Virus record (IMG/VR): IMGVR_UViG_3300024346_000237
Span: 1-36,014 of that record
From: a virus
Length of the DNA: 36,014 nt
Direction: 5' to 3' (one strand)
Position numbers and translations under genes: made by a program. Of the stretch, positions 4-33,866 are shown piece after piece (position 1 is the stretch's first letter; each line of letters starts with the position of its first letter). A model generated the notes under the pieces. That model ran no database searches and was not told the origin of the DNA. It saw nothing but the letters and a program-made list of their open reading frames with translations.

Positions 4-285
4 ATGGGGAGCGGATTAAAAAATAAAAAGAAAAACAATTTGCCAGATAATTATATTGCAAATAAAGAAGAAGCTTCTGCGTACAAGTGGTGCTTACATA
101 ACAATATAAGAATAGGTCTTCAAGCAATAGATTACGTTCAGAACCCTGATAAATGGAAGATAGCCATAAGTATAGGGGAAAACTATAAAGCTTTTCATTT
201 GTCCCCTAGTGTATATACAAAAGACAATGTATGGCCGGAGTATTATAAAGCATGCTTATATTATTACAATAAACACAATAAATAA
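4..285 (+). CDS. conserved phage protein of unknown function
   Basis: This gene encodes a 93-aa soluble protein with a lysine-rich N-terminus and a tyrosine-rich C-terminal half. It has no signal peptide or membrane segment. The core around residues 22-35 (EEASAYKWCLHNN) resembles, from memory, small proteins found near nucleotide genes in marine phages, but I know of no function. The ATG at position 4 is the first start visible. The frame stays open to the window edge, so the true start could lie upstream. Its stop codon shares one base with the ATG of the next gene (TAATG), so the two are co-transcribed and probably translationally coupled. Confidence 0.7.
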   Translation: MGSGLKNKKKNNLPDNYIANKEEASAYKWCLHNNIRIGLQAIDYVQNPDKWKIAISIGENYKAFHLSPSVYTKDNVWPEYYKACLYYYNKHNK

Positions 286-1100
286 TGAATATACAAGAAG
301 AGTACAACAAATTAATGTCAGAAGTCTTATATCAAGGCAAAAAGAAAAGTGATCGCACTGGCACGGGCACGCTAAGCGTATTTGGTAGAACAATAAGACA
401 CGATATGAGCGAGGGCTTTCCTTTACTTACTACAAAGAAAGTTTGGTTCAATGCTGCTTTAACAGAAATTCTATGGATTTTACAAGGCAGAACAGATGTA
501 ACTTACTTGCAAAACCACAAAGTGCACTATTGGGATGCTGATTATGAAAGATCAGGAAGAACAGACAACACTTTAGGACCTGTATACGGGAAGCAATGGC
601 GCGATTTCGGCGGCGTAGATCAGCTTAAAAACCTTTTGGCAGATATTAAGTCTAATCCTGATTCAAGACGTCTTATAGTGAGCGCATGGAACCCCATTGA
701 AATGCCAGATATGGCTTTACCGCCTTGTCATTACGGTTTTCAAGTTTATATTAATGATGGTGTTATAGATTTAATGTGGCAACAACGTTCTGTAGATATA
801 TTTTTAGGTCTGCCTTATGATATTGCAATGTATGGATTACTATTAGAGTTCTTAGCTAAAGGTAATGGTTTAAAAGCAGGCTCATTAATTGGACAACTTG
901 GAGATTGCCATCTTTATAGCAATCATATAAAGCAAGCATCAGAGCAATTAGAAAGATATATGTATGAGTTACCAACAATTCAGGTAGAACACGGTTTATA
1001 TCTTGACAACGATGCTATCTTTATGCCAGTACATAATTCCGTATCTTTAATTAATTACAAATCACACCCTGCAATCAAGGCTCCTTTGTCTGTAGGATAA
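285..1100 (+). CDS. thyA: thymidylate synthase family enzyme, possible dCMP (hydroxy)methylase
   Basis: This 271-aa protein has the full thymidylate synthase fold and length (E. coli ThyA has 264 aa). Visible motifs are DRTGTGT (23-29), GFPLLTTKK (44-52), E61, the phosphate-binding RR at 128-129, the catalytic loop PPCH with nucleophile Cys148, QRS.D (167-171), the GD.H.Y.NH motif near residues 206-214, and a C-terminal APLSVG tail. The family transfers a one-carbon unit from methylene-tetrahydrofolate to C5 of a pyrimidine deoxynucleotide. The odd residue is Asp179 in LPYDIA. Thymidylate synthases carry Asn here (E. coli Asn177), which recognises uracil, while T4 dCMP hydroxymethylase carries Asp, which recognises cytosine. 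The fold assignment is secure but the substrate is open: dUMP, or more likely dCMP. The symbol reflects homology only. The gene is coupled to the upstream gene by a one-base overlap. Confidence 0.93.
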   Translation: MNIQEEYNKLMSEVLYQGKKKSDRTGTGTLSVFGRTIRHDMSEGFPLLTTKKVWFNAALTEILWILQGRTDVTYLQNHKVHYWDADYERSGRTDNTLGPVYGKQWRDFGGVDQLKNLLADIKSNPDSRRLIVSAWNPIEMPDMALPPCHYGFQVYINDGVIDLMWQQRSVDIFLGLPYDIAMYGLLLEFLAKGNGLKAGSLIGQLGDCHLYSNHIKQASEQLERYMYELPTIQVEHGLYLDNDAIFMPVHNSVSLINYKSHPAIKAPLSVG

Positions 1101-1111
1101 AACCAAGCAAT

Positions 1112-1909
1112 ATGTTTTACATCTACCATATCCCCGGTAAGAAGATAGGCGTAACACGTAATTTAAATAAACGCGTTACTGAACAACAAGGCTATAAAAA
1201 AGGCGAATACGAAGTCTTAGAAGAGTCTGAAGATATAAGCTATGTATCTAAAAAAGAATTAGCTTTACAAAGAGCCTACGGCTATAAAGTAGATAGGCAA
1301 TTATATTCTGAATTAAATAAAATCAAATCTAATAAAATGAAACTAAACGTAACGGAACAAACAACAACTTTCCCTATGCCTTTAAATAAGCTTAAAGGAC
1401 ATTTGATGGACAACAAAGGACTTAAGTGGGAAACATCATTAGGTGAGTTTAAAATTTCTAAAAAAACAATTGAATGGCTATTGCATAATGCTAGGCCTAG
1501 TATGTACAACAACGATAGATGTTTTATTTATAATAAAGCATATCACGAGGCGTTTATAGCTGAACCAGCCTTAGAACCTACTCATACTAAGTTTGAATTA
1601 ATTAGACAATGGGCTCAAGAACGTGGAATATATGATAAAGGAGATACAAAAACGCAGTATATTAAATTACTTGAAGAAACTGGTGAATTGGCTAAAGCAA
1701 TTCTTAACAATGACAGACCAGAAATTATTGATGCTATTGGGGACTGCGTTGTGGTTCTTACTAATCTTGCCAAGCTCGCTAATCTTAATATTGAAGATTG
1801 CATCGATAGTGCTTATAACGAAATATCTGCAAGAAAAGGAAAAATGATTAATGGCACTTTTGTTAAAGAAGAAACTCTTAAACATAAAGAAATAAACTTT
1901 CACTTATAA
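1112..1909 (+). CDS. GIY-YIG-like domain fused to MazG NTP pyrophosphohydrolase
   Basis: This 265-aa protein appears to have two domains. Residues 1-62 look like a compact GIY-YIG nuclease module: YIYHI at 3-7, IGVT at 12-15, basic residues R16 and R21, and Glu49 in the position of the usual acidic metal ligand. Residues 158-245 are a MazG-type all-alpha NTP pyrophosphohydrolase, with the metal-binding pattern EETGE (188-192) and E204..D207..D211. The middle (75-155) is not recognised. MazG enzymes hydrolyse (d)NTPs to NMP and pyrophosphate, which fits the neighbouring ThyA-family and RNR genes. The GIY-YIG part has a poor first motif and may bind DNA without cutting it. The ATG is 11 bases after the previous stop, and the end overlaps the next start by one base. 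Confidence 0.85.
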   Translation: MFYIYHIPGKKIGVTRNLNKRVTEQQGYKKGEYEVLEESEDISYVSKKELALQRAYGYKVDRQLYSELNKIKSNKMKLNVTEQTTTFPMPLNKLKGHLMDNKGLKWETSLGEFKISKKTIEWLLHNARPSMYNNDRCFIYNKAYHEAFIAEPALEPTHTKFELIRQWAQERGIYDKGDTKTQYIKLLEETGELAKAILNNDRPEIIDAIGDCVVVLTNLAKLANLNIEDCIDSAYNEISARKGKMINGTFVKEETLKHKEINFHL

Positions 1910-2948: not shown

Positions 2949-3102
2949 TGACAAATCCGCCACTATAGAATGGTGGGTAGATGATATGCTTACAGAAATG
3001 AAAGCACTAAAAAATAAGGGGGTCACTAAAAAAGACCTCCTTTTATACCTCGACTCGTGGGAGTCAACATTAAGAACAATAAAAACAATAACAAACGACT
3101 AA
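2941..3102 (+). CDS. small hypothetical protein (53 aa) upstream of nrdB
   Basis: This 53-aa protein has a tryptophan-rich helix (IEWWVDDMLTEMKAL), a turn at KNKGVTKKD, and a second helix (LLLYLDSWESTLRTIK). It is probably a small helical protein; the function is unknown. It overlaps the previous gene by eight bases, and its TAA stop shares one base with the ATG at 3102. That shared base is the main reason for placing the nrdB start at 3102. Confidence 0.6.
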   Translation: MNNDKSATIEWWVDDMLTEMKALKNKGVTKKDLLLYLDSWESTLRTIKTITND

Positions 3103-4073
3103 TGGGATTATTTACACCGAGAATTGAGTACAAGCCTTTTGAATATCCAATCTACTTTACTGAAGGTTGGTTAAAACAAGCGCAAGCATTTTGGTTACAC
3201 ACTGAGATTAGCATGTCAGGAGATGTTAAAGACTGGAACGAAAAGCTAACAGCTGAAGAAAAAAGTTTAGTAGGTAACATACTACTAGGCTTTGCACAAA
3301 CAGAATGCGCAGTATCTGACTACTGGACACAAAAAGTAGTTGGTTGGTTTCCTAAGCATGAAGTACAACAAATGGCCATGATGTTCGGTTCTCAAGAAAC
3401 AATCCATGCAGTTGCTTATTCTTATTTAAATGAAACACTTGGACTTGAAGACTTTAAAGCTTTTTTACAAGATGAAGCTACAATGGATAGGTTTAATAAC
3501 TTGGTTGCGTATGAAGGAACGGATACGAAAGGTATTGGTACATCTTTGGCAGTCTTTTCCGCCTTTGCGGAGGGAGTAAGTTTATATTCTGCTTTTGCAG
3601 TATTATATAGCTTCCAGCTAAGAAACCTTTTGAAAGGTATTGGACAACAAATGAAATGGAGTGTAAGAGATGAATCATTGCATTCTAAAATGGGTTGCCA
3701 GCTATTCAGACATATGTGTGAAGAAGACAAAGAATTATTAAACATTTGCAGAGAAGATGTTGTAGTCGCAGCAACTTCAATGCTACAAGCAGAAGAAAAT
3801 TATATTGACAGAATGTTTGAAGCAGGAGACGTAGAAGGTATTAAAGCTTACGATCTCAAACAATTTATTAGAAAAAGACTTAACGAAAAACTTGTTGAAC
3901 TTGGATACGTCGACCTTGGGTCCTACTTTGCATTTGACGAAAAAGGATCAAAAAATCTCGACTGGTTTTATCACCTTACAGGTGGCGTTACTCACACTGA
4001 CTTTTTTGCTACTCGTCCAACGGATTATAGCAAAGCGGGTGAAGGAGAAGACTTTGAGGACATATGGAATTAA
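3102..4073 (+). CDS. nrdB: ribonucleotide reductase class I small (beta) subunit
   Basis: This 323-aa ferritin-like protein houses the dimetal centre and radical that start ribonucleotide reduction by NrdA. By alignment with E. coli NrdB the metal ligands are Glu68 (E. coli Asp84), Glu99 and His102 in ETIH, Glu157, and Glu191 and His194 in RDESLH. Tyr106 sits exactly where the radical Tyr122 is. The spacing from Glu68 to Glu99 is 31 residues, as in E. coli, so the Asp-to-Glu change in the first ligand is reliable. Trp31 matches Trp48. An upstream GTG at 3057 would extend the frame by 15 residues, but that part is Asn/Lys filler inside the preceding gene; the ATG at 3102 gives the natural MGLFTPRIEY start and a TAATG overlap. 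Confidence 0.95.
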   Translation: MGLFTPRIEYKPFEYPIYFTEGWLKQAQAFWLHTEISMSGDVKDWNEKLTAEEKSLVGNILLGFAQTECAVSDYWTQKVVGWFPKHEVQQMAMMFGSQETIHAVAYSYLNETLGLEDFKAFLQDEATMDRFNNLVAYEGTDTKGIGTSLAVFSAFAEGVSLYSAFAVLYSFQLRNLLKGIGQQMKWSVRDESLHSKMGCQLFRHMCEEDKELLNICREDVVVAATSMLQAEENYIDRMFEAGDVEGIKAYDLKQFIRKRLNEKLVELGYVDLGSYFAFDEKGSKNLDWFYHLTGGVTHTDFFATRPTDYSKAGEGEDFEDIWN

Positions 4074-4285
4074 CTAAATTAAATAAAATGAAAGAACAGA
4101 CTTTATTAGAAATGAAAAACAAAATTGAAATGCTTGGCGGCTTAGTACAGCAAGTGATTCAAGAAATGAGTAACCTAAAAGATTTATCTATAGGTAGCTT
4201 AGAAACAATCAAAAGAATGCCTGGATATAAAGAAGCTATAGACCAGTTAATAGAAGAGTCGAACAACAAAAAAGAAGATAAGTAA
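4064..4285 (+). CDS. hypothetical helical protein between nrdB and nrdA
   Basis: This 73-aa protein is predicted to be almost entirely helical (KEQTLLEMKNKIEMLGGLVQ and later ETIKRMPGYKEAIDQLIEE), with a charged C-terminal tail NNKKEDK. It has no cysteines, so it is not the glutaredoxin that often sits in phage RNR operons. I do not recognise it. It overlaps the end of nrdB by ten bases and shares one base with the nrdA start, so it should be made together with both reductase subunits. Confidence 0.7.
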   Translation: MELTKLNKMKEQTLLEMKNKIEMLGGLVQQVIQEMSNLKDLSIGSLETIKRMPGYKEAIDQLIEESNNKKEDK

Positions 4286-6057
4286 TGAGCTGGAACAACG
4301 ACTGGGTTAAAGGAGTAGACTATCCCTCTTGGGGAAACACTGAGGTGTATAAAAAAACAATATCTGGGGGGTATTTAATGGCTGGCGAAACACCAAAAGA
4401 CGCTTATATGCGAGTAGCAAACACTGTTGCAAAGCGGTTATATAAGCCAGAATTGGCGGATAAGTTCTTTCAGTACATATGGAAGGGGTGGCTAAACTTA
4501 GCTTCACCAGTACTATCTAATACGGGTACGGATAGAGGTTTACCTATATCATGCTTTGGTATTGATGTAGGGGACAGCATTGCCGATATTGGTCAAAAGA
4601 ATTTAGAAATGATGTTGCTTGCAAAGCACGGAGGAGGAGTTGGTATAGGTATAAATATGATCCGTCCAGCTGGTGCTAAAATCACCGGTAATGGTACGTC
4701 AGACGGAGTAGTTCCTTTTTGTAAAATATATGATTCAACTATATTAGCTACTAATCAAGGAGCGGTTAGACGAGGGGCGGCTAGTGTTAATATTAACATT
4801 GATCATAAAGATTTTGAAGAGTGGTTAGAAATTAGAGAACCAAAAGGAGATGTAAATAGACAATCGCTTAACCTACACCAATGTGCAGTTGTTGGAGACA
4901 AGTTTATGAGAAGACTTGAAGAAGGCGACGCTGAGGCTAGAAGAAAGTGGAGTAAACTATTACAAAAAAGAAAAGCTACAGGAGAACCATATGTGTTATT
5001 CAAAGGCAACACAAACAAAGCAAACCCTGAGGCATATAAAAGAAATGGATTAAAAGTACATATGACTAACATTTGTAGTGAGATTGCATTACACACAGAT
5101 GAAAATCATAGTTTCGTATGTTGCTTGTCATCATTAAATCTTACAAAATATGAAGAGTGGAAAGATACTAATCTTATTTATGACGCGATTTGGTTCCTTG
5201 ACGGAGTCCTTGAAGAGTTTATACAAAAGGCTAAAGGCCTTAAAGGATTTGAAAACTCAGTTCGTTCTGCAGAAAAAGGAAGAGCGCTTGGCCTTGGAGT
5301 CCTTGGGTGGCACACTTACCTCCAACAAAACGGAATACCTTTCGAAGGGCTTCAAGCTCAATTTGAGACTAGGAGAATATTTAGCCAGATTAAAATCGAA
5401 AGCGAGAGGGCATCGAGGGCACTTGCCGAGGTATACGGAGAACCTCTTTGGTGTCGTGATACTGGATTTAGGAATACTCACCTTAGGGCTATTGCACCTA
5501 CTGTATCAAATAGTAAACTATCTGGGAATGTGTCTCCAGGCATCGAGCCTTGGGCTGCAAATGTATTTACAGAGCAGTCTGCAAAAGGTACGTTCATACG
5601 TAAGAACAAAGAATTAATAAAAGTTCTTAAAAAAGTAGGTATTGACACAGAGGAAACGTGGAATAAAATACTTGAAGATGGTGGAAGTATTCAGGGCATA
5701 AATATTTTAGATGATTGGGGATATATAAATAAAAAATTAGTATATTTACCAGATACATCAGAACAAGATATGTTAAATGGTTATGACGCTGTTAAAGATG
5801 TATTTAAAACGTTCAAAGAAATAAACCAGTTGGAATTAGTTAATCAAGCTGGTATACGTCAACAATATATAGATCAGTCAGTAAGTTTAAACTTAGCTTT
5901 CCCGTCTACTGCAACACCAAAGTGGATTAATCAAGTTCATTTTGAAGCATGGAAAAAAGGAGTGAAGACTTTATACTACACAAGAACTGAATCAGTATTA
6001 CGAGGAGATATTGCTGCAAAAGCTATGGATCCAGATTGCCTATCGTGTGATGGGTAA
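4285..6057 (+). CDS. nrdA: ribonucleotide reductase class I large (alpha) subunit
   Basis: This 590-aa catalytic subunit reduces ribonucleoside diphosphates to deoxynucleotides. Active-site residues are visible: Cys90 in LPISCFG (E. coli Cys225), the NICSE triad Asn262, Cys264 and Glu266 (E. coli Asn437, Cys439, Glu441), the redox partner in FVCCLSSLN (Cys280 most likely), the radical-transfer tyrosine pair in TLYYTRTE, and a C-terminal shuttle CLSC at 585-588. The N-terminus starts directly in the helical domain, so the ATP-cone of cellular NrdA (E. coli, 761 aa) is missing and dATP feedback through that site is not expected. The gene follows the 73-aa gene with a one-base overlap, and its stop is followed by terminator hairpins. 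Confidence 0.95.
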   Translation: MSWNNDWVKGVDYPSWGNTEVYKKTISGGYLMAGETPKDAYMRVANTVAKRLYKPELADKFFQYIWKGWLNLASPVLSNTGTDRGLPISCFGIDVGDSIADIGQKNLEMMLLAKHGGGVGIGINMIRPAGAKITGNGTSDGVVPFCKIYDSTILATNQGAVRRGAASVNINIDHKDFEEWLEIREPKGDVNRQSLNLHQCAVVGDKFMRRLEEGDAEARRKWSKLLQKRKATGEPYVLFKGNTNKANPEAYKRNGLKVHMTNICSEIALHTDENHSFVCCLSSLNLTKYEEWKDTNLIYDAIWFLDGVLEEFIQKAKGLKGFENSVRSAEKGRALGLGVLGWHTYLQQNGIPFEGLQAQFETRRIFSQIKIESERASRALAEVYGEPLWCRDTGFRNTHLRAIAPTVSNSKLSGNVSPGIEPWAANVFTEQSAKGTFIRKNKELIKVLKKVGIDTEETWNKILEDGGSIQGINILDDWGYINKKLVYLPDTSEQDMLNGYDAVKDVFKTFKEINQLELVNQAGIRQQYIDQSVSLNLAFPSTATPKWINQVHFEAWKKGVKTLYYTRTESVLRGDIAAKAMDPDCLSCDG

Positions 6058-6802: not shown

Positions 6803-9800
6803 CTATTGCCTTCCTGTTTTTCTTCCAACACTTCTACCCGCCGCTCTTCCTAATGTTCTTCCTTTTTTAGTAGATTTTTTAGCTTTTTCAATTTCTGGAT
6901 CTTTTAAGCCTAAGTCCCAAGTGTTATATCCTAAAAATAAAGCTGCTCTTTGCCAAGTTTCTGCTTCTTGTTGAGTCGCCGCTTTTAAGTTTGATGCCTT
7001 TGTAAATATTCTATCTAACGGGACATTAAGTGCGGCTGAAGTTAAACTTCCGGCAATGCCATAATAAGGGTGGTTTGGGTTATCGTATCCAATTTCATCT
7101 AAAATCTTTTTATTGTACTTGTAAGATTTCATTGCACTGTGTATTTTTCTAGCCTTAATTCCAATTGCTGGAGAAACATTTAAAAGTTCAATTATTACTT
7201 TTGTGTCGTCACCAGTCCAGCCTTTATCGTTTTCTTTTTTCCAAGTAATCAATGCGTTTTTTAATGATGCTATAGTTGCACCTCCGATACCCGAGCCTCT
7301 TAAAACTCCATCAAGAACACTATTTATTGCTCTTTCTGTTTTTGTATTTATTAATCTTTGGTCATCTTCATCATCGTCATCAAGTCCTGTTAAAGCAAAT
7401 AACGCATTTTGAAAAAACGAAAATATCATATTTTGTATTGTAGAGTAATAAACTATTCTTGATAAATTAGCCTTTCTACTTCCTCTACCGTTTATTAAGT
7501 CTAAAGCGGCTTTTTTGGTGAGCCTTGTCATTTGCATAGGAGTATTTTGGAATGCTAAAAATAGCCTACCAACTACACTAACTTGTTGGTTTGAAAGTAA
7601 ATCTTGTCTTGAAGACTGCTGTGTTTTTTCAGCAAGCTCTTGAAAATCTAAAAACGCTTGTTCAGCAGCATTCGCTGATGACATTCCTTCTTTTAAATAT
7701 TTTTGCTCTCTATTGTATAAAAATGGAGCTCCCCCTGTTGCGATAGCAAAGTTGTCTCCGTATTTGGTTAAAGAAAATCCTTTTTCAAGAATGTAAGACA
7801 ATAAAGCTTTATTTTTATTTTTGCTGCCTTGCATTCTAGCCGCTAATTCAGATTCATTAATATCCGTTTTTAAGCCTTGTCTGCGCTCTTTCATCCAATC
7901 TGAGTTAAATATTTTAACCCAATATTCTGCATATTTTTTTGGATCAGCTAACAGTTTAGCTTGAGCAATAGGATTGTTTTCTTCCCAGTTTGTAAAGTTA
8001 ACTATAGATAGTTGTTGCAACAGTGCCGATCTAACATTAAAGAACATGGTCGTTGCCACAGAACCCCTAACCCAATTTAAATATTTATTTGCTAACTGAT
8101 TAGATCCTATTTCTCTCGCTTGACCTTTTTTAATTCTGTAAAGCATATCTTCTAAGGCAGACCTTAAATTTGGACCGTAGGCTGCTTCTATTTTATTTAA
8201 ATTATCTTCAGAAAATATAATATCAGCATTTACAATAAACTCTTCAAATATTCTAGCCCTACCAATTTTGCTTAGTATTTCTTGAAGATCCATTTCAATA
8301 GTGCTAGCCGTCCAATCATCCGCAGGCTCTAGCCAGCTTTCTTTTTTGTTTGGCACGTTGATTAACTCTTCCGCAAATTTTAAAAGCTTGGGATTTTTTA
8401 TTACAGATTCAAGCAACCCTTTTTTATCAGCGGCATTTATACCTGGTATGTCATAACCAAGCTTGGTCCACATATATACTCTTACTGCAGCATCATTATT
8501 GTAATATTTATAAGTGCTTTCTGCTCTAAGTTTTTTGTTTATACCTTTATTTGCTTTTATTAAATTGTAATAAGAACTTTTAATTAATTGTCTTTCGGAG
8601 TTTAAATTATAATTAGCTCTTGCTAGTGGTTTTAAAAGTTTTTCTTCAAAAAATTTCATATCAGCATCACCTTGCTTACCAGAACCTAAAAAGTTGTACA
8701 ACATACCAACTAAATCATCCGCTGAAGGCGGCACAAAAACTTTAAGTTTTCCTTTTTTCTGGCCAATTAATTTTGCTGTAGCTTTTGAAATAATTGTTTT
8801 AGCTGCAATACCTTTCTTTCTTTCAAGCATTTCGTTAAAAGTGCTGTTCATTGATTTTGCAGATTTAGAAGGTCTTATATTAGCCGAGCTAGATCTGTCA
8901 AAATTATCAAAGGTAATATCCTCTTTTCCTTGTGTTATGTATTTTGTAGTTAACCCTGGGAATTTTGATTTTATATAAGAATTATAATACCTATATAAAG
9001 GATCCATTCCTAACTCAAAATCAACCGGAAACTTTTGCGTTAATTTTCCTTTAGTTAAAATATTATCAAATTCTTTTGGAACCAAAGCAACCCTTGAGCT
9101 ATTAAGCGCGCTTTTTATTTGACCTATTGTAATGCTAGAGTCTATCCCCATTACGTAAGAAGCTATCGCCCTTGCTAAGTAGGAACTAGGAGTAACATGC
9201 TCATATACATAATAAGATGATTTCAAACCGGGTATTTCAACTATATACTCAAGATTAGCGGCTATTTTAAGGGTCGACCCCATTGTAGACAATAATGCTT
9301 TAAGAGTTATTCCTAATTCTTTAACGCTCATTGAATTTAAACCGCTATTTTCAGATTGCATAGAATCTTTTAAAAAATTAATTAAATCTAAAATTTCTTT
9401 TTTTGCATCCTCAGATCTGTCGTTTCTTTCTTTAATATTCATTTTAGAAGGATCCACAATTTCATCCATAGAAAAAGCGCTTGCTCTTTGCGGATCAAAT
9501 TTACCTTTTACATTTTCTTCATTATAATATATAGACTTACCTCCAACAACTTCTTTTAATTCAAAACCGGCTATTTCTTCTTCGGATAATCTATTGTTTT
9601 TTTCAATAAATTCCCTGTGCAAGGTTGTATTGTTAAACAAATAACTATTTTTACCATTTGCAAAAGCCCTTCCTAATAAAGAAAGCGTTTTTTTAGCTGC
9701 TTCAACTGGTGTAAGCTTTTTACTATCAATAAACCAATTATTAACTTTATTTAAAATTTCTACTGCTTGATAAAAATTTAATTTAGGGTCTACTTCTTCA

Positions 9801-12800
9801 GCAGTTAATTTAAGTAATGAATTTATATTATCTGAAGCCGTTTCTTGCTCAAAAATAAGGTTGTTTATAAATGTAGCAAATTTTTCGCCTTTAGACCCTT
9901 TTTTTATTTGAGCTATTTTCTTTTGATAAATTTTCCAAGCTCTTCTTGTATAAAATTTTTCAAAAACATTAAAAATTTCTTGTTTAATTTCATCTCTTAT
10001 ATTAGAATTTGCATAAACTTCATCCCAAATATTATTAATAAAATCGGTTGTAAAAGTTCTATTACTAGAAAATAATTTAAAAGAAAATTCATTAACAGAA
10101 GCATTGTCCGCTCCTAAAAATTCAAACTTTTCTAAATCATTCATTTTATCCTTAAGTAAAATTCTTAATCCTGATTTTGAAAGTTTAATGTTGCCTCTTT
10201 CAATGCTTTTCGCCACTGTTTCTGCAACACTACCGCTAAATTCTATCCCATACACAGAAGCATACTCACCTATTGTTTCAGAAATTGGGCCGCCTTCAAT
10301 AATGTCTTCTTGTAATATTTCAAATCCAACCTCCGCGGCTAATTGCCTTGACAATGAGTCCAGCGCGTTTACTTTTATCTTATTTCTTAAAGCTCCGTCT
10401 TGAAAATGATAATCAACGTATTCGTTTTCTTTTAATATTTCTTTTATTTTTGGGTTTCGAATAATCATTTCAGGACCCGAAGTTAATCCTCTACCAACTG
10501 CGTTATCTCTGTCTATTTTAAGCTTATTGCCGTTTGCATCAACCCAATCATATTTATAGGTGCTTATTCTTGTTGGAGCAATCCATTCGCCATTAACTCT
10601 TTTTAATATGCCTTTTCTAAAAAATGGATGTTTAGATAAAAATGTAGTAGTAAAATTATCTAATATATTTTCTCTATTTTTTATTAAAAATTGCTCTAAG
10701 TCTTGCTCCTTAATATATTTTGCAATAGGTTTTCTTAAAGATTCAGCTAAATCTGCTTTGATATTATTTATATATTCAGCAGAAGTTCTATTTTTTGATT
10801 GCCCTTTTGTAAAATCCTTAGAAGCTAAAGAAGCAAATTTTGTAACCGAAGAAGTTATTTCTTGAATTAACTCTGATGGAAATATTATTTTTTCTTTTAG
10901 CTTTGGTTTTATTTTTTTTGGTTTTTCTTTTGCAATTTCTTCAGAAACCAATATTGCATCTTCAGCTGTTTCTGTAGCAACAACATCTTTAACTTCTGTA
11001 ACATCGGATTTAAACGTGCTTGCTTCGTCTTTACCTAAAAGCTGGTTTGCTAAAGTAATACTTCTTGCTGCTAAATATTTATTTATATACGCAGCTAATG
11101 GCACACCTTTGTTTTCTTCAGGTTTATATTTTAAAGCCAACCCCATAACCCCATAGGTGGGGTCATCTAATATACTAGCTACTAAATCTTCTTTATAGGT
11201 TGTAAAACCAGGTCTATCTCTATAACGCTGAGCAATTTTGTTAGCCATAGGCTTATACTCGTCCATTATTTCATATATACCAGCGATGCCTTGTTCGTCG
11301 TATATTTTTTGAACTTTATTAGAGGCGTCTTCCGCAAGAGAAAACATGATTTTGTCAGTGTCATCATCCATTGCAATTTTAACGCCTGACTTTAAATAAG
11401 CTTTGCTGTAATTTTTTAAATAATCAAATACATTTTCCGTTGTATTTAATTTAGCAAATAAATTAAAATTAGGAGAAACTATTTTAGCTACATTGTTAAA
11501 TAAATTTCTTATTTCATAGTTAGTGTTGAAATCATCTAAACTAAGAGCGCCAAGTTGAATGGCATCGGATATAGCTACAAAAGTTTCCTCTATATTATAT
11601 TCTTTTTTTATTTTTTCTTTTTCAATATAATCCTCAAAATTTAATTTAGATTTTTGCGATTGCAATTCAATTTCTTCATAAGAAATATCATTGCCATTTT
11701 TATCAAAATAATTAGTATATAAATCAAATCGGCTTTGCAAATCCTTTAAATTCTTTTCAGATATATTCCCAGCTTGTTGTTTTTCTTTTAATGTATTAGT
11801 TATTGTTTCTTGAAAGCTATTTAAGCTAGTCCTAAGGCCTTCGTTGACGCTAGATAGTTTTTCGCTTGTCAATTTAATATGGAGTAGCTCGTGTACAGGT
11901 GAAACAGCCGCATAAAGGCCTGCTGATTTATTTTCAGATATTTGCCTAAACACATTTTCTGTATTTAAATAAATATTTTTACCATCAACAAAAGCGTTTG
12001 CGTTCATGATCTCCGCAGCCTCGTCTTGCTTCATTCCTTTATTGACGGCTTTTTGGAATAACTGAACTGCTTCTAACGCATTAATCTCTATTACATTACC
12101 GCCTTTTGGCATTAATTCTTTTATGAGCTCTTTGTTGTAATTGTATAAAGAAATAGCAAAAGCTTGATCAGCATCATTACTTTCTTCTAATTTTTGATTT
12201 AAAATATTGCCTTTTTCAAAATCAAGTGTTTTATATTCTTGCGATGCCTCATTAAAAAGTTTATTTTTTAATTGAGGGTCTAAGCTTGACGAAGCAATCT
12301 CTTGTATTGCTTTTATTTTTTTTCTTTGCTTATTTGCAATATTAAAAACTTCTTCAAATTGCTTTTGAGAAAGCTTATTAACCTTATGTAAATTAAGCGC
12401 ATCTTTTATGCCTGCCTCCTCTAATATTTCATTTCGCCTTGCGTTAAGCTTTTTTCTATCTGATTTGGCTACTGAATTATTATTTAAATTTTCGGTAATT
12501 GATATTAATTCGTTTCTTAATTTTCTATTTTTGTTAATATCGTCTAAAGTATTTAATTCGCTTTTAGCAATATTATATATATTATTTGTGTGCGCTGGTC
12601 CACCAATAGCCGCCGAAGTTATTGCTGTTTTTACAAAAAACTCTTTATTTATACCCTGTACAAGGCTTTTGTCTTCTTTAAGTATAGATATATCAGATAG
12701 ATTCTGAGCAAGTTGCGTTAAGGTTTCTTCGGCTTCTTCTATTGCTACCCCCTTTAAAACTTGAGTTCCAGCAAATGAAAGCTTTTTAAGAATATTTTTA

Positions 12801-14566
12801 TTCGCAACTTTAGCAAAGTCACCAATACCATTAACTATTCTTAAAGAACCAAAACTTTCAGCGGCGGCTTCTGCTGTGCCGTAAATAAGAGCGCTAGCTG
12901 CCATTTGCAGCGAAGAGTAATTTAAATTATCTTGATAAAAATTTATTTGATCTTGAATTTGTTTTCTTTCAAATTCATACTCAGCGGTTAATAATTTTTC
13001 TTTTAACAAAGGTACTGCAGTAACTGCATCTTTTTTAGCAGAAGCAATATCCGCATATTTGCCCCCTCCTGAAGTTGTGAAAAATATACCTCTTGACAAG
13101 TTTGTCAACGCTTTTTTAGTAGCAATTTGAACGGCTTTACTTGCTCCTTTTGTTATTATTCCTCCCGCTCCAGGGAGTAAAGCAGCCGCAATGCTTAAAC
13201 TATTATCAGCTAAAGTTTCTGCGGCGAACGTAGAAAAATTATCTAAACTTAAATCTTTAAAATCAACCGTCTTTACAAAATCTTTTTCAATGTCTTGAGA
13301 CAACGACCTGTAATAGTTGATAGCATCGTCTTGAAGTATTTTAGCTTTGGTGTCTAATAAAATGTTATCATCATTAATTAAAGCTTCCAAAGCTGTAGCC
13401 CCTAGTACAGCTGCCCCAGCGCCGGCTTTTTCTAATTGTTTAAAAAATCTTTGGCCTATACTATATTCAAGCTTTAATGCTTTTAAACCAGACGCTATAT
13501 CATTTGAATTTTCAATAACAGGTTTTAATTCTTGAAGATTTTTATTAAAAGAGTCTAACTCTTGCAAAATAGATTGTCTTTCAACATTATATTCCTCAAA
13601 ATTAATTTTACTTTCTGCATTTTCAATTTTTGCAACAATATTTTTATATTGCTCAATAACTTTTGGAGAATGCTCAGAGTAGCCCAAATCATTTATAATT
13701 GGACCGCCATAAAGTTCTTCTAGTTCTTTTAGCTCAGCAATAGCTTTATTTCTTTCAGCAAATTTAGGCTCAAATTTATTTTTAAAAGAAGTTTGTTTTT
13801 CTTCTATTAATTCACTGTTGTCGAATAAATCTACTACATTTTTTTCTTTATTTTCTAGAACCCCTTGCACTTGCATGCGTTCTTCTTCCGTAAGATCTTT
13901 AAAAAAGTTTTGAGCCTTATTATACTTTAAAGAAGATAATATAGAATTCTTAGCGTCTTCATTTATATTTAAAGAACCAGTATTTTCATAATTTTTGTAC
14001 TCTTCAAGTTTTCCGCTTGACTTTAAGTAATTTTCTAAATCTTCTTCGTAAGTATTTAGGTATTTTTTAGTAGGAGCTGCGCCTGGCCCAATTGCAGGAA
14101 AGTATTCAAAAGGCCTTTCAATTTTGGAAATATTAAAATATTTTTCAGCAAACGTGGATTGAATTTCATCGTCGGAAACGGAAACAGCGTTAAAATAATT
14201 TTTTGATAATTCCGCTTTTTCGCTTTCTGTAAATACTTTTTTTACTTTTTCAGTATATTTTCTGCTTAATTCTTGGCGGTCTTTGTATGGTAATTTCTTT
14301 TTTTCCTCTAAGCTAATTTCTTGCAAATCCAAAGAACCATCTTCCAATGCTAACTCCGTATCTGGAGCTGTTGTTCCGCTCGGAACATTTGCACCCTCCA
14401 CCGCATTGTTGTTTTGGGTGATCAGCTTTCCCTCCTCCTTAACAGGATCAGGAGATTTAACTTTAATTCCAGCTTTATTTATATACTCTTCAATAGATAA
14501 ATTAGACGCTTGCGCCGCCTTATTTATTTGATCTAATGATACGTCTTGATCGTTATATTTAAACAT
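6803..14566 (-). CDS. giant (2587 aa) ejection / large polyvalent virion protein
   Basis: This gene fills more than a fifth of the window. The protein is mostly helical and lysine/glutamate-rich. Parts seen: a disordered, charged N-terminus (to about 60); hydrophobic Ala/Gly patches near 376-396 and 450-476; a zincin motif HELLH at 892-896; a segment at about 1095-1180 that reads like sigma-70 region 2; a hydrophobic, aromatic segment near 2335-2395 (FLAFQNTPMQMTRL onward); and an Arg/Gly/Lys tail (TLGRAAGRSVGRKTGRQ). It follows 206- and 465-aa proteins and precedes the lysis genes, the place of T7 gp16. Phage proteins of this size are packaged in the particle and injected with the DNA, often with several enzymatic domains. 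A lytic transglycosylase motif was not seen. The overall role is inferred from position and size. Confidence 0.85.
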   Translation of the reverse strand: MFKYNDQDVSLDQINKAAQASNLSIEEYINKAGIKVKSPDPVKEEGKLITQNNNAVEGANVPSGTTAPDTELALEDGSLDLQEISLEEKKKLPYKDRQELSRKYTEKVKKVFTESEKAELSKNYFNAVSVSDDEIQSTFAEKYFNISKIERPFEYFPAIGPGAAPTKKYLNTYEEDLENYLKSSGKLEEYKNYENTGSLNINEDAKNSILSSLKYNKAQNFFKDLTEEERMQVQGVLENKEKNVVDLFDNSELIEEKQTSFKNKFEPKFAERNKAIAELKELEELYGGPIINDLGYSEHSPKVIEQYKNIVAKIENAESKINFEEYNVERQSILQELDSFNKNLQELKPVIENSNDIASGLKALKLEYSIGQRFFKQLEKAGAGAAVLGATALEALINDDNILLDTKAKILQDDAINYYRSLSQDIEKDFVKTVDFKDLSLDNFSTFAAETLADNSLSIAAALLPGAGGIITKGASKAVQIATKKALTNLSRGIFFTTSGGGKYADIASAKKDAVTAVPLLKEKLLTAEYEFERKQIQDQINFYQDNLNYSSLQMAASALIYGTAEAAAESFGSLRIVNGIGDFAKVANKNILKKLSFAGTQVLKGVAIEEAEETLTQLAQNLSDISILKEDKSLVQGINKEFFVKTAITSAAIGGPAHTNNIYNIAKSELNTLDDINKNRKLRNELISITENLNNNSVAKSDRKKLNARRNEILEEAGIKDALNLHKVNKLSQKQFEEVFNIANKQRKKIKAIQEIASSSLDPQLKNKLFNEASQEYKTLDFEKGNILNQKLEESNDADQAFAISLYNYNKELIKELMPKGGNVIEINALEAVQLFQKAVNKGMKQDEAAEIMNANAFVDGKNIYLNTENVFRQISENKSAGLYAAVSPVHELLHIKLTSEKLSSVNEGLRTSLNSFQETITNTLKEKQQAGNISEKNLKDLQSRFDLYTNYFDKNGNDISYEEIELQSQKSKLNFEDYIEKEKIKKEYNIEETFVAISDAIQLGALSLDDFNTNYEIRNLFNNVAKIVSPNFNLFAKLNTTENVFDYLKNYSKAYLKSGVKIAMDDDTDKIMFSLAEDASNKVQKIYDEQGIAGIYEIMDEYKPMANKIAQRYRDRPGFTTYKEDLVASILDDPTYGVMGLALKYKPEENKGVPLAAYINKYLAARSITLANQLLGKDEASTFKSDVTEVKDVVATETAEDAILVSEEIAKEKPKKIKPKLKEKIIFPSELIQEITSSVTKFASLASKDFTKGQSKNRTSAEYINNIKADLAESLRKPIAKYIKEQDLEQFLIKNRENILDNFTTTFLSKHPFFRKGILKRVNGEWIAPTRISTYKYDWVDANGNKLKIDRDNAVGRGLTSGPEMIIRNPKIKEILKENEYVDYHFQDGALRNKIKVNALDSLSRQLAAEVGFEILQEDIIEGGPISETIGEYASVYGIEFSGSVAETVAKSIERGNIKLSKSGLRILLKDKMNDLEKFEFLGADNASVNEFSFKLFSSNRTFTTDFINNIWDEVYANSNIRDEIKQEIFNVFEKFYTRRAWKIYQKKIAQIKKGSKGEKFATFINNLIFEQETASDNINSLLKLTAEEVDPKLNFYQAVEILNKVNNWFIDSKKLTPVEAAKKTLSLLGRAFANGKNSYLFNNTTLHREFIEKNNRLSEEEIAGFELKEVVGGKSIYYNEENVKGKFDPQRASAFSMDEIVDPSKMNIKERNDRSEDAKKEILDLINFLKDSMQSENSGLNSMSVKELGITLKALLSTMGSTLKIAANLEYIVEIPGLKSSYYVYEHVTPSSYLARAIASYVMGIDSSITIGQIKSALNSSRVALVPKEFDNILTKGKLTQKFPVDFELGMDPLYRYYNSYIKSKFPGLTTKYITQGKEDITFDNFDRSSSANIRPSKSAKSMNSTFNEMLERKKGIAAKTIISKATAKLIGQKKGKLKVFVPPSADDLVGMLYNFLGSGKQGDADMKFFEEKLLKPLARANYNLNSERQLIKSSYYNLIKANKGINKKLRAESTYKYYNNDAAVRVYMWTKLGYDIPGINAADKKGLLESVIKNPKLLKFAEELINVPNKKESWLEPADDWTASTIEMDLQEILSKIGRARIFEEFIVNADIIFSEDNLNKIEAAYGPNLRSALEDMLYRIKKGQAREIGSNQLANKYLNWVRGSVATTMFFNVRSALLQQLSIVNFTNWEENNPIAQAKLLADPKKYAEYWVKIFNSDWMKERRQGLKTDINESELAARMQGSKNKNKALLSYILEKGFSLTKYGDNFAIATGGAPFLYNREQKYLKEGMSSANAAEQAFLDFQELAEKTQQSSRQDLLSNQQVSVVGRLFLAFQNTPMQMTRLTKKAALDLINGRGSRKANLSRIVYYSTIQNMIFSFFQNALFALTGLDDDDEDDQRLINTKTERAINSVLDGVLRGSGIGGATIASLKNALITWKKENDKGWTGDDTKVIIELLNVSPAIGIKARKIHSAMKSYKYNKKILDEIGYDNPNHPYYGIAGSLTSAALNVPLDRIFTKASNLKAATQQEAETWQRAALFLGYNTWDLGLKDPEIEKAKKSTKKGRTLGRAAGRSVGRKTGRQ

Positions 14567-30502: not shown

Positions 30503-30771
30503 TATTTGCTCCTCCTTTCAGCAAAACCTTTAAATGAAGCTTCCTCTTCTTTAGGTTTGTTATCTAAAATATTTTTTTCGTCTTCAATTCTATTAAGTAT
30601 TTCAAAAGCATCAAATATTGCGAGCTTCTTTGTTGCAGCAGCATTTTTTAATCTATCAGCACTAATATCATCATCTGAATCTACAATCTGCTCCCGCGCT
30701 ACTTTTATTAATTCCTCAACAGCCTTATAGCCTGCTTGGATTATATTCGACTTCATTTCCTTTGCGGTCAT
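30502..30771 (-). CDS. small helical protein, candidate small terminase subunit
   Basis: This 89-aa protein is all-helical: IIQAGYKAVEELIKVAREQI (10-29), then DRLKNAAATKKLAIFDAFEIL (39-59). The KNAAATKKLAIFDAFEIL region recurs, from memory, beside TerL in marine phages. A helical DNA-binding oligomer upstream of TerL suggests TerS, but a clear HTH is not visible. It shares one base with the TerL start and overlaps the preceding gene by 47 bases; a start at Met6 (30756) would shorten the overlap to 32 bases. Confidence 0.65.
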   Translation of the reverse strand: MTAKEMKSNIIQAGYKAVEELIKVAREQIVDSDDDISADRLKNAAATKKLAIFDAFEILNRIEDEKNILDNKPKEEEASFKGFAERRSK

Positions 30772-31318
30772 ATTTTATTGAAATTGATTTAAGTGGTATT
30801 CTATATAATCTTTTGCTATCTACAATAAACTCATATTCGGAGTGTGGGGTAAAACCGACCAGCTCTTCTTTATTAACAAAATCTGACCCATCAACATATT
30901 TAACAATACCCATCAATGGGATCTCGTGGTCAATGTCTAGCAAATCTTCTTTTAAACTTTTTAAAGGCTGTACAAAACAAAATCCTTCCATAGCAGCCCA
31001 CTGGTCATTTACTTTTCGCAAAAATATTTGGTCTTGGCCGCATAAATATGTGTCCTCATTAAAAAAACTTTTGCTGTTTTTTTCTTGACCGTGAATATCA
31101 TAAAACCTTCTAAATATATTATGATGAACTATTAATTCATCTCCTGGTTTTATGCTTGTATTGTAACCAATAGGTACAGCTTTTACTATTGCTTCTCTGC
31201 TGACAAATTTGTGATCTTCTATAGAGGTATTTAATATTAGCTCTGATCCTTCAACGTCTTTTTTATTATTGTATCTATTACTTTTTGGTTGTATAATAAA
31301 TTCAAGAGGGCTATTCAT
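30725..31318 (-). CDS. GroES-like-barrel candidate, unknown function (197 aa)
   Basis: This 197-aa beta-rich protein has an N-terminal half that reads like a GroES-type barrel: VSREAIVKAVPIGY (39-52), then IKPGDELIVHHNIFRRFYDI, and a return strand with EGFCFVQPL. The spacing from V..VP to the PGDELIVH turn is like that of co-chaperonins (GEVLAVG followed by VGDIVIF). Residues 130-197 form a second small beta part (MGIVKYVDGSDFVNKEE) that repeats a similar idea. I do not recognise a named family. If real, this would be a second co-chaperonin-like protein beside GroES at 33609. It is equally possible that it is a capsid-decoration or head-completion protein. Confidence 0.6.
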   Translation of the reverse strand: MNSPLEFIIQPKSNRYNNKKDVEGSELILNTSIEDHKFVSREAIVKAVPIGYNTSIKPGDELIVHHNIFRRFYDIHGQEKNSKSFFNEDTYLCGQDQIFLRKVNDQWAAMEGFCFVQPLKSLKEDLLDIDHEIPLMGIVKYVDGSDFVNKEELVGFTPHSEYEFIVDSKRLYRIPLKSISIKYDRKGNEVEYNPSRL

Positions 31319-33168: not shown

Positions 33169-33612
33169 TTATCGTTCTTTATCTTTAATCATATCATCTA
33201 AAGCTTTGTTCATTACTTTATCTGTATATGTTTTGTTGTTATAAAATACATTTCTGCTAGTAACAGGAACATCTTCTTCCCCTAAAAGTATTTTATATAT
33301 TCTAGTTATTAAATGCTTGCATTTAAAAGAAGTGGTATATATTGTATATTTTTGCGTTGTATGATTTCTTTGTCTCCACACTTCAATCCAACCGTTTCTT
33401 CTAAGGCGTTCCCAACGGTTTTTATCCCAAGCATAAGTATATACTCCTTCTATAAATTCATTACGAGTAAATTTATTTTTACAATCTAAGTAGATAAGCA
33501 ATTCAAGATCTGAATCGCTCAACTTATTAGTTTTACAGGCCCATTTTCTAACGAGCCTGTAATACTTAAATAAATTTATATCTCTTAAATCTGAAGCCTC
33601 TAGTCTTCTCAT
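33169..33612 (-). CDS. winged-helix-like DNA-binding protein (147 aa)
   Basis: This 147-aa protein starts MRRLEASDLRDINLFKYYRLV. Helices LSDSDLELLIYLD (31-43) and TRNEFIEGVYTYAWDKNRWERL (49-70), followed by the hairpin NGWIEVWRQRNHTTQKYTIYTT, give the layout of a winged helix: recognition helix and two-strand wing with Arg/Lys. It resembles MarR-type folds and, from memory, a conserved marine phage family. It could be a transcription regulator or a small-terminase-like DNA binder. It overlaps the groES stop by four bases (ATGA). Confidence 0.7.
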   Translation of the reverse strand: MRRLEASDLRDINLFKYYRLVRKWACKTNKLSDSDLELLIYLDCKNKFTRNEFIEGVYTYAWDKNRWERLRRNGWIEVWRQRNHTTQKYTIYTTSFKCKHLITRIYKILLGEEDVPVTSRNVFYNNKTYTDKVMNKALDDMIKDKER

Positions 33613-33866
33613 TCAACTATAACCACGTCAGGTTGTCTTATAACTTTGTAAAGACTTCCCTTATATTCTATTCCGTGTCCAGCGTGTCTGTCATAGTATA
33701 TAATATCATTTTCGCTAACACCTAATGTGTTTTCTCCAACGCTTACTACTTTACCTTTTAAATAGCGAATATCGCTAGTATGTTGGTCCATAATAAGTAA
33801 ACCACTTTCAGACTTCTGCTCTTCTTTTATTTCTGTAATTACAATGTAGCTATTAATTGCTTTCAT
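33609..33866 (-). CDS. groES: phage co-chaperonin GroES
   Basis: This 85-aa protein is a short GroES. It has a first strand (YIVITEIKEEQ, 7-17), a mobile loop with SGLLI at 21-25 (the LLI tripeptide matches the IVL contact that binds GroEL, and T4 gp31's loop), LKGKVVSVGENTLGVSENDI (36-55) for the GEV..VG and DxI turn, and a C-terminal strand (KVIRQPDVVIVE). E. coli GroES has 97 and T4 gp31 111 residues; the roof hairpin is short here. It overlaps groEL by 14 bases and follows it, reversing the bacterial order. The partner is very likely the phage GroEL beside it, but binding of host GroEL cannot be excluded. Confidence 0.88.
   Translation of the reverse strand: MKAINSYIVITEIKEEQKSESGLLIMDQHTSDIRYLKGKVVSVGENTLGVSENDIIYYDRHAGHGIEYKGSLYKVIRQPDVVIVE

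Follow-up and report, generated by a model that had tools for sequence, protein, structure and literature searches.

Does a viral protein with every outward mark of ThyA still produce thymidylate, or has a single residue redirected it from uracil to cytosine? This question is raised by the gene located at positions 285-1100 (plus strand) of the window, the whole stretch of 36,014 bases that was analysed and that constitutes an entire IMG/VR record. The record is evidently a fragment, many related contigs with the same gene reaching about 50-70 kb. Its closest terminase relative is found in the uncultured podovirus MW202828 (64%), followed by the Flavobacterium elemo phages (44%) and the Cellulophaga phages phi13:2 and phi38:1 (36-37%). 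These terminase similarities point most probably to a host among marine or aquatic Flavobacteriia.

Several other features of this virus can be described. Downstream on the same strand lie the genes of the small (3102-4073, PF00268, E=4.5e-54) and large (4285-6057, PF02867, E=1.1e-91) subunits of ribonucleotide reductase, assigned to deoxynucleotide supply and conserved in position in 68 and 61 loci respectively; the start of the former was shifted to the ATG at 3102 after comparison with relatives. The minus strand carries at 6803-14566 a single open reading frame of 2,587 amino acids with a HELLH-type metallopeptidase-like motif, probably encoding an ejected virion protein. The same strand encodes a phage GroEL (33853-35415) with an adjoining GroES-like protein (33609-33866), and another GroES-like protein is encoded close to the terminase gene (30725-31318), an arrangement that matches the elemo and Cellulophaga relatives. 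Related genomes of 60-70 kb (L082-L097; G001, G003, G030, G042) encode a primase-helicase resembling T7 gp4, an HTH protein of DnaA-like type, ERF, a PD-DExK nuclease and a sigma-like factor.

The thymidylate synthase homologue and its selector residue

The 271-residue product of the 285-1100 gene is covered over its full length by the PF00303 profile (E=6.6e-90), and in NCBIfam it matches models of thymidylate synthase, with TIGR03284 scoring well above its cut-off; the initial annotation had foreseen that databases would call this protein ThyA. The AlphaFold model has a pLDDT of 85.5, and the best PDB matches, 1njc among them, are all thymidylate synthases, the similarity to the solved enzymes being 39-45%. 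The catalytic nucleophile Cys148, encoded by the TGT codon at 726-728 and equivalent to E. coli Cys146, is present, as are the arginine pair (Arg128/Arg129) and the His209/Tyr211 pair, all of which had been correctly described as intact. These residues are invariant in the window clade together with His149, Arg168, Ser169, Asp171, Trp83, Tyr101 and Glu61, and an active enzyme is therefore to be expected.

The anomaly concerns the pyrimidine selector. Asp179, encoded by the GAT codon at 819-821, corresponds to Asn177 of E. coli, Asn229 of L. casei and Asp179 of the T4 dCMP hydroxymethylase gp42, with which it was aligned as predicted. The surrounding LPYDIA motif occupies residues 176-181 and not 177-182 as first reported, the position and codon of the aspartate itself being exact. 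In phmmer alignments, Asp179 faces the asparagine of the solved thymidylate synthases and the aspartate of PDB entry 1njc, which is the L. casei N229D mutant and bears the title 'thymidylate synthase, mutation, N229D with dCMP'. Asparagine is indeed the residue of thymidylate synthases: it is found in 80 of 80 cellular homologues, in every bacterial homologue recovered from a genome scan and in all sampled viral homologues of the Asn type, the non-redundant Asn-type set compared here numbering 125. The window protein departs at this position from the dUMP-specific thymidylate synthases (EC 2.1.1.45), which have the Asn selector. Aspartate is present at all 81 loci (the window record and 80 others, with 60-98% identity) of a set gathered by sequence similarity and without choosing on the selector residue. 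This fixation rules out a one-base sequencing error between AAT and GAT. No closely related enzyme was found in cultured phages, where the best matches stay below 60% identity, and the aligned enzymes of the T5-like phage slur09, Vibrio phage nt-1, Sinorhizobium phage ort11 and Arthrobacter phage Qui all have asparagine.

The selector residue governs the preference for dUMP or dCMP (PMC8670742, PMC6400193). In the passages of PMC8670742 that cite Liu and Santi 1992, replacement of Asn177 by aspartate is described as turning thymidylate synthase to dCMP, with 5-methyl-dCMP as the product. The literature thus agrees with the initial statement that such mutants prefer dCMP. A protein of this kind could nevertheless still be a thymidylate synthase acting on dUMP, if other residues of the pocket compensated for the aspartate. 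Candidates exist: the window clade has Tyr82, Tyr178 and Met182 where all 125 Asn-type sequences have Ile, Phe and Ser, and Gly184 is fixed. The resemblance to solved canonical enzymes and the intact catalytic residues would suit this explanation, and so would the absence of kinase and glycosyltransferase genes described below. The invariance of the aspartate within the clade and the behavior of the mutants reported in the two sources cited above, for the first of them through its citation of Liu and Santi, argue against it. So does the association of Asp-type, and not Asn-type, synthases with MazG/PRA-PH genes presented in a later section. Retention of dUMP as the substrate is accordingly regarded as improbable.

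Phylogenetic placement and nature of the product

A maximum-likelihood tree of 54 proteins was computed with the selector column excluded. The window clade (support 100/100) is joined to Asn-type marine viral thymidylate synthases (99/95). Five changes between Asn and Asp are the most parsimonious number on this tree, and at least three are forced by well-supported branches. The Asp-type enzymes of the Xp12 lineage, for which AXL1 and PaMx28 served as proxies of Xp12 (MT664984) and Xoo-sp2, lie far from the window clade, with about 4 changes per site along the intervening branch (100/100). MG189906, an unrelated phage, was set aside. A larger tree of 68 proteins including T4 gp42 agrees in outline; gp42 stands on a very long branch, and other well-supported branches hold the window clade with the Asn-type enzymes. 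Placement in such a PF00303 tree, proposed at the outset as a check, lends no support to a kinship with gp42, the window protein grouping instead with Asn-type marine synthases. Membership of the gp42 lineage is supported neither by the tree nor by the residues at the positions of T4 Ser94 and Asp145. This topology, in which the clade joins Asn-type marine viral ThyA far from the Xp12 lineage and is not placed with gp42, points to a switch separate from those of both lineages, and the position of the clade among Asn-type enzymes suggests that its direction was from Asn to Asp. Asp-type synthases also occur in many more viral lineages (L158, L168, L173, L181, L197, L203, L208, L391/L392 and others); some of them are placed among Asn-type enzymes, which suggests repeated switches, and in several the gene next to the synthase encodes a dCMP deaminase or a DUF6378 protein.

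If cytosine is the base recognized, the one-carbon unit added to it can be considered from the active site. The initial annotation left the choice between 5-methyl- and 5-hydroxymethyl-dCMP, with T4 as the parallel. In the T4 enzyme, Asp179 recognizes cytosine and protonates N3, and Ser94, Tyr96 and Asp145 are required for full hydroxymethylation (PMC6400193). The positions of the water-activating Ser94 and Asp145 are occupied by Pro99 and Leu145 in the window protein, which retains the residues of methyl and hydride transfer, Trp83, Tyr101 and His149 (W80, Y94 and H147). With Trp83 and His149 kept and the Ser94/Asp145 pair missing, methylation is the better guess and 5-methyl-dCMP the likely product; the methyl half of the earlier proposal fits better and the parallel with gp42 is less apt. 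A dCMP hydroxymethylase of the gp42 kind, giving phage DNA with 5-hydroxymethylcytosine, shares the aspartate and might be helped by the C-terminal tail, which is 1-2 residues longer in most of the window clade and might loosen the closure of the active site. This possibility appears unlikely in view of these TS-like residues, of a tree that does not place the protein with gp42 and of the genomes examined, in which neither a glycosyltransferase nor a dNMP kinase was recognized. As for the sugar, Ser169 and the arginine pair favor deoxyribose over ribose substrates (PMC5175136), and their conservation predicts a deoxyribonucleotide as the substrate, unlike that of MilA.

The MazG partner gene and its recurrence

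The gene directly downstream of the synthase (1112-1909, plus strand) encodes a fusion protein of 265 residues, predicted to be a dCTP pyrophosphatase. Its C-terminal part is a MazG nucleotide pyrophosphohydrolase domain, covering residues 158-253 (1583-1870) and matched by PF03819 (E=7e-8, 33.1 bits for a cut-off of 22) and PF01503 (E=3.7e-5). Its weak N-terminal part is T5orf172/GIY-YIG-like, the PF10544 match (E=0.0026) being below the cut-off; this half (1112-1580) also contains a conserved YHxP..KIGxT motif. The fusion gene directly follows the synthase in 80 of the 81 loci, on the same strand and mostly after a gap of 10-20 nt, and in these 80 loci the EExGE and DxIGD motifs, of the catalytic EExxE and ExxD type, are kept. 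MazG/PRA-PH proteins are also present in related phages devoid of the synthase, the elemo phages. Simple inheritance of the window MazG from such relatives was rejected, the elemo PRA-PH protein being only weakly similar to it and the MazG adjoining the Asp-type synthase of another lineage being 61% identical.

This association extends beyond the window clade. PF03819 adjoins the synthase in 12 of 27 Asp-type records outside the clade, whereas the 23 Asn-type records show no such neighbor (p=1.5e-4 ignoring kinship, a value that overstates the case since the PRA-PH and MazG families overlap and members of the same lineage do not count as independent). Among 101 open reading frames beside Asp-type synthases, PRA-PH was matched 12 times and MazG 10 times, while among 135 beside Asn-type synthases both fell outside the 25 commonest families, corresponding to at most 2 matches each. 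The linkage recurs in the window clade, in a clade of 259-residue enzymes (L122 and kin), in L144/L174, L181 and L197, and in the Xp12 lineage, where a PRA-PH protein adjoins the Asp-type synthase of AXL1 and PaMx28. Three Xp12-like loci (L110:1582-2742, L132:1659-2702, L152:1032-1913) encode a PRA-PH domain joined to a P-loop segment that bears a GRHGKDT-type motif, and comparable PRA-PH/P-loop GKDT fusions are found beside other Asp-type synthases (L391:1849-2772, L392:1384-2490). For the L391 protein, the family of deoxynucleotide monophosphate kinases was a marginal match below cut-off (E=0.0099), and these proteins are possibly dCTPase-kinase fusions serving modified nucleotides. In the MetaGPA study, PRA-PH co-occurs with thymidylate synthase in contigs of modified DNA, Asp177 marks such contigs and E. 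coli position 147 is the other residue that differs in them (PMC8670742). The clade-wide aspartate, its separate origin, the literature on the selector and the linkage of Asp-type synthases to MazG/PRA-PH together make it very likely that the substrate choice of the window enzyme has been switched to dCMP.

A predicted route to 5-methylcytosine and its known counterparts

The reading favored here, to which fair confidence is given, is that of an Asp-switched ThyA making 5-methyl-dCMP with a MazG dCTPase as partner, and of phage DNA containing 5-methylcytosine. The exchange of Asn for Asp would allow the enzyme to bind and protonate cytosine in place of uracil and to transfer the methyl group from 5,10-methylene-tetrahydrofolate to dCMP, yielding 5-methyl-dCMP and dihydrofolate. 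The downstream MazG-type enzyme would convert dCTP to dCMP, thereby feeding the methylase and clearing the unmodified dCTP. Host kinases would then raise 5-methyl-dCMP to 5-methyl-dCTP, and its incorporation by the replicase would leave cytosine partly or wholly replaced by 5-methylcytosine. Modified cytosine in the phage DNA, also implied by the initial annotation, is probable on these grounds. Such DNA would resist many restriction enzymes, and the methylated base would probably act as a disguise.

The main weakness of this pathway is the kinase. A scan of four large related genomes for P-loop motifs picked up the primase-helicase and apparently incidental sequences but no dNMP kinase, unlike the situation in T4 and, probably, in several other Asp-type lineages; phosphorylation of the modified nucleotide would thus depend on kinases of the host. 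The retention of His149 also speaks against it, position 147 being altered in the MetaGPA modified contigs. Among the conserved neighbors of the synthase gene no DHFR was seen, no DNA polymerase gene was recognized by eye among the conserved open reading frames of the related 60-70 kb genomes listed above, and GC content gave no discrimination.

The missing kinase leaves room for a rival route to thymidylate, in which a host dCMP deaminase would convert 5-methyl-dCMP to dTMP, bypassing dUMP and producing no modified base. Enzymes that deaminate dCMP can take 5-methyl-dCMP as a substrate, and a dCMP deaminase gene adjoins the synthase in several other Asp-type lineages. However, a dCMP deaminase (PF00383) was found in none of 46 window-clade records, most records of the clade being fragments, and a phage-encoded conversion of the product to dTMP was rejected on this count. 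The Xp12 lineage, moreover, has a deaminase beside its Asp-type synthase, yet Xp12 DNA bears 5-methylcytosine (PMC7653180) 'in place of all cytosines' (PMC9206674). Deamination is thus considered very improbable. An independent supply of dTMP by a second thymidylate synthase or ThyX of the same phages was also sought, and neither was present in these 46 records.

With methylation for incorporation into DNA retained as the preferred reading, a wider proposal can be advanced tentatively. The phages of this clade, a widespread one infecting marine Flavobacteriia, would have derived a natural dCMP methylase from an ordinary ThyA, independently of T4 and Xp12, and joined it to a MazG dCTPase, building a wholly 5-methylcytosine genome with host kinases and replicase. 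The pair formed by an Asp-type synthase and MazG/PRA-PH would have arisen several times and would constitute a general signature, readable from sequence, of pre-replicative cytosine modification. If this is true, replacement of cytosine by 5-methylcytosine, so far known in Xp12 and suspected in its relatives, would be a frequent trait of uncultured phages of marine Flavobacteriia, and it would have evolved more than once, by the same substitution that was originally engineered in the laboratory. The restriction resistance of such phages would find an explanation, bisulfite analysis and the calling of modified bases in marine viromes would be confounded, and automatic 'ThyA' annotation would conceal a different chemistry. 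One residue and a neighboring gene would provide a signature testable directly in existing metagenomes.

Known systems share some of these features. T4 gp42 has the PF00303 fold and Asp179 in common with the window protein but appears to belong to another lineage; the window protein lacks Ser94/Asp145, has His149 and not Thr, and possesses the full C-terminus of a thymidylate synthase. T4 also encodes a dNMP kinase, and several other Asp-type lineages have a probable one fused to PRA-PH. The MetaGPA synthases (PMC8670742) share the aspartate at E. coli position 177 and the co-occurrence with PRA-PH, whereas they also differ at position 147, in association with hydroxymethyl and carbamoyloxymethyl cytosine, where the window clade keeps its histidine. 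The CMP hydroxymethylases MilA and BcmA (PMC5175136) have the Asp selector as well, but Ala and Lys replace the Ser169 and Arg kept by the window enzyme, for which a deoxy substrate is expected. The dCMP methylase of the Xp12 lineage, represented by AXL1 gp63 and PaMx28 ThyA and credited with dCMP methylation from the Xp12 literature, shares both the selector and the adjoining MazG/PRA-PH gene, and AXL1 DNA withstood most restriction enzymes tried (PMC9206674). It is not of the same clade and is very distant on the tree, its catalytic cysteine is followed by proline (CP) where the window clade has CH, and its neighbors include a dCMP deaminase and a DHFR, both lacking beside the window enzyme. 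The closest engineered equivalent is the L. casei N229D enzyme (PDB 1njc/1njd), with the same scaffold, the same aligned Asn-to-Asp exchange and the other catalytic residues kept, reported as a deoxycytidylate methylase in the work of Liu and Santi 1992 as cited in PMC8670742. What is a laboratory mutant there is a natural and fixed state here, accompanied by Tyr82, Tyr178, Met182 and Gly184. In its likely mode of action the window enzyme resembles the Xp12 methylase and this engineered mutant, while representing a separate lineage.
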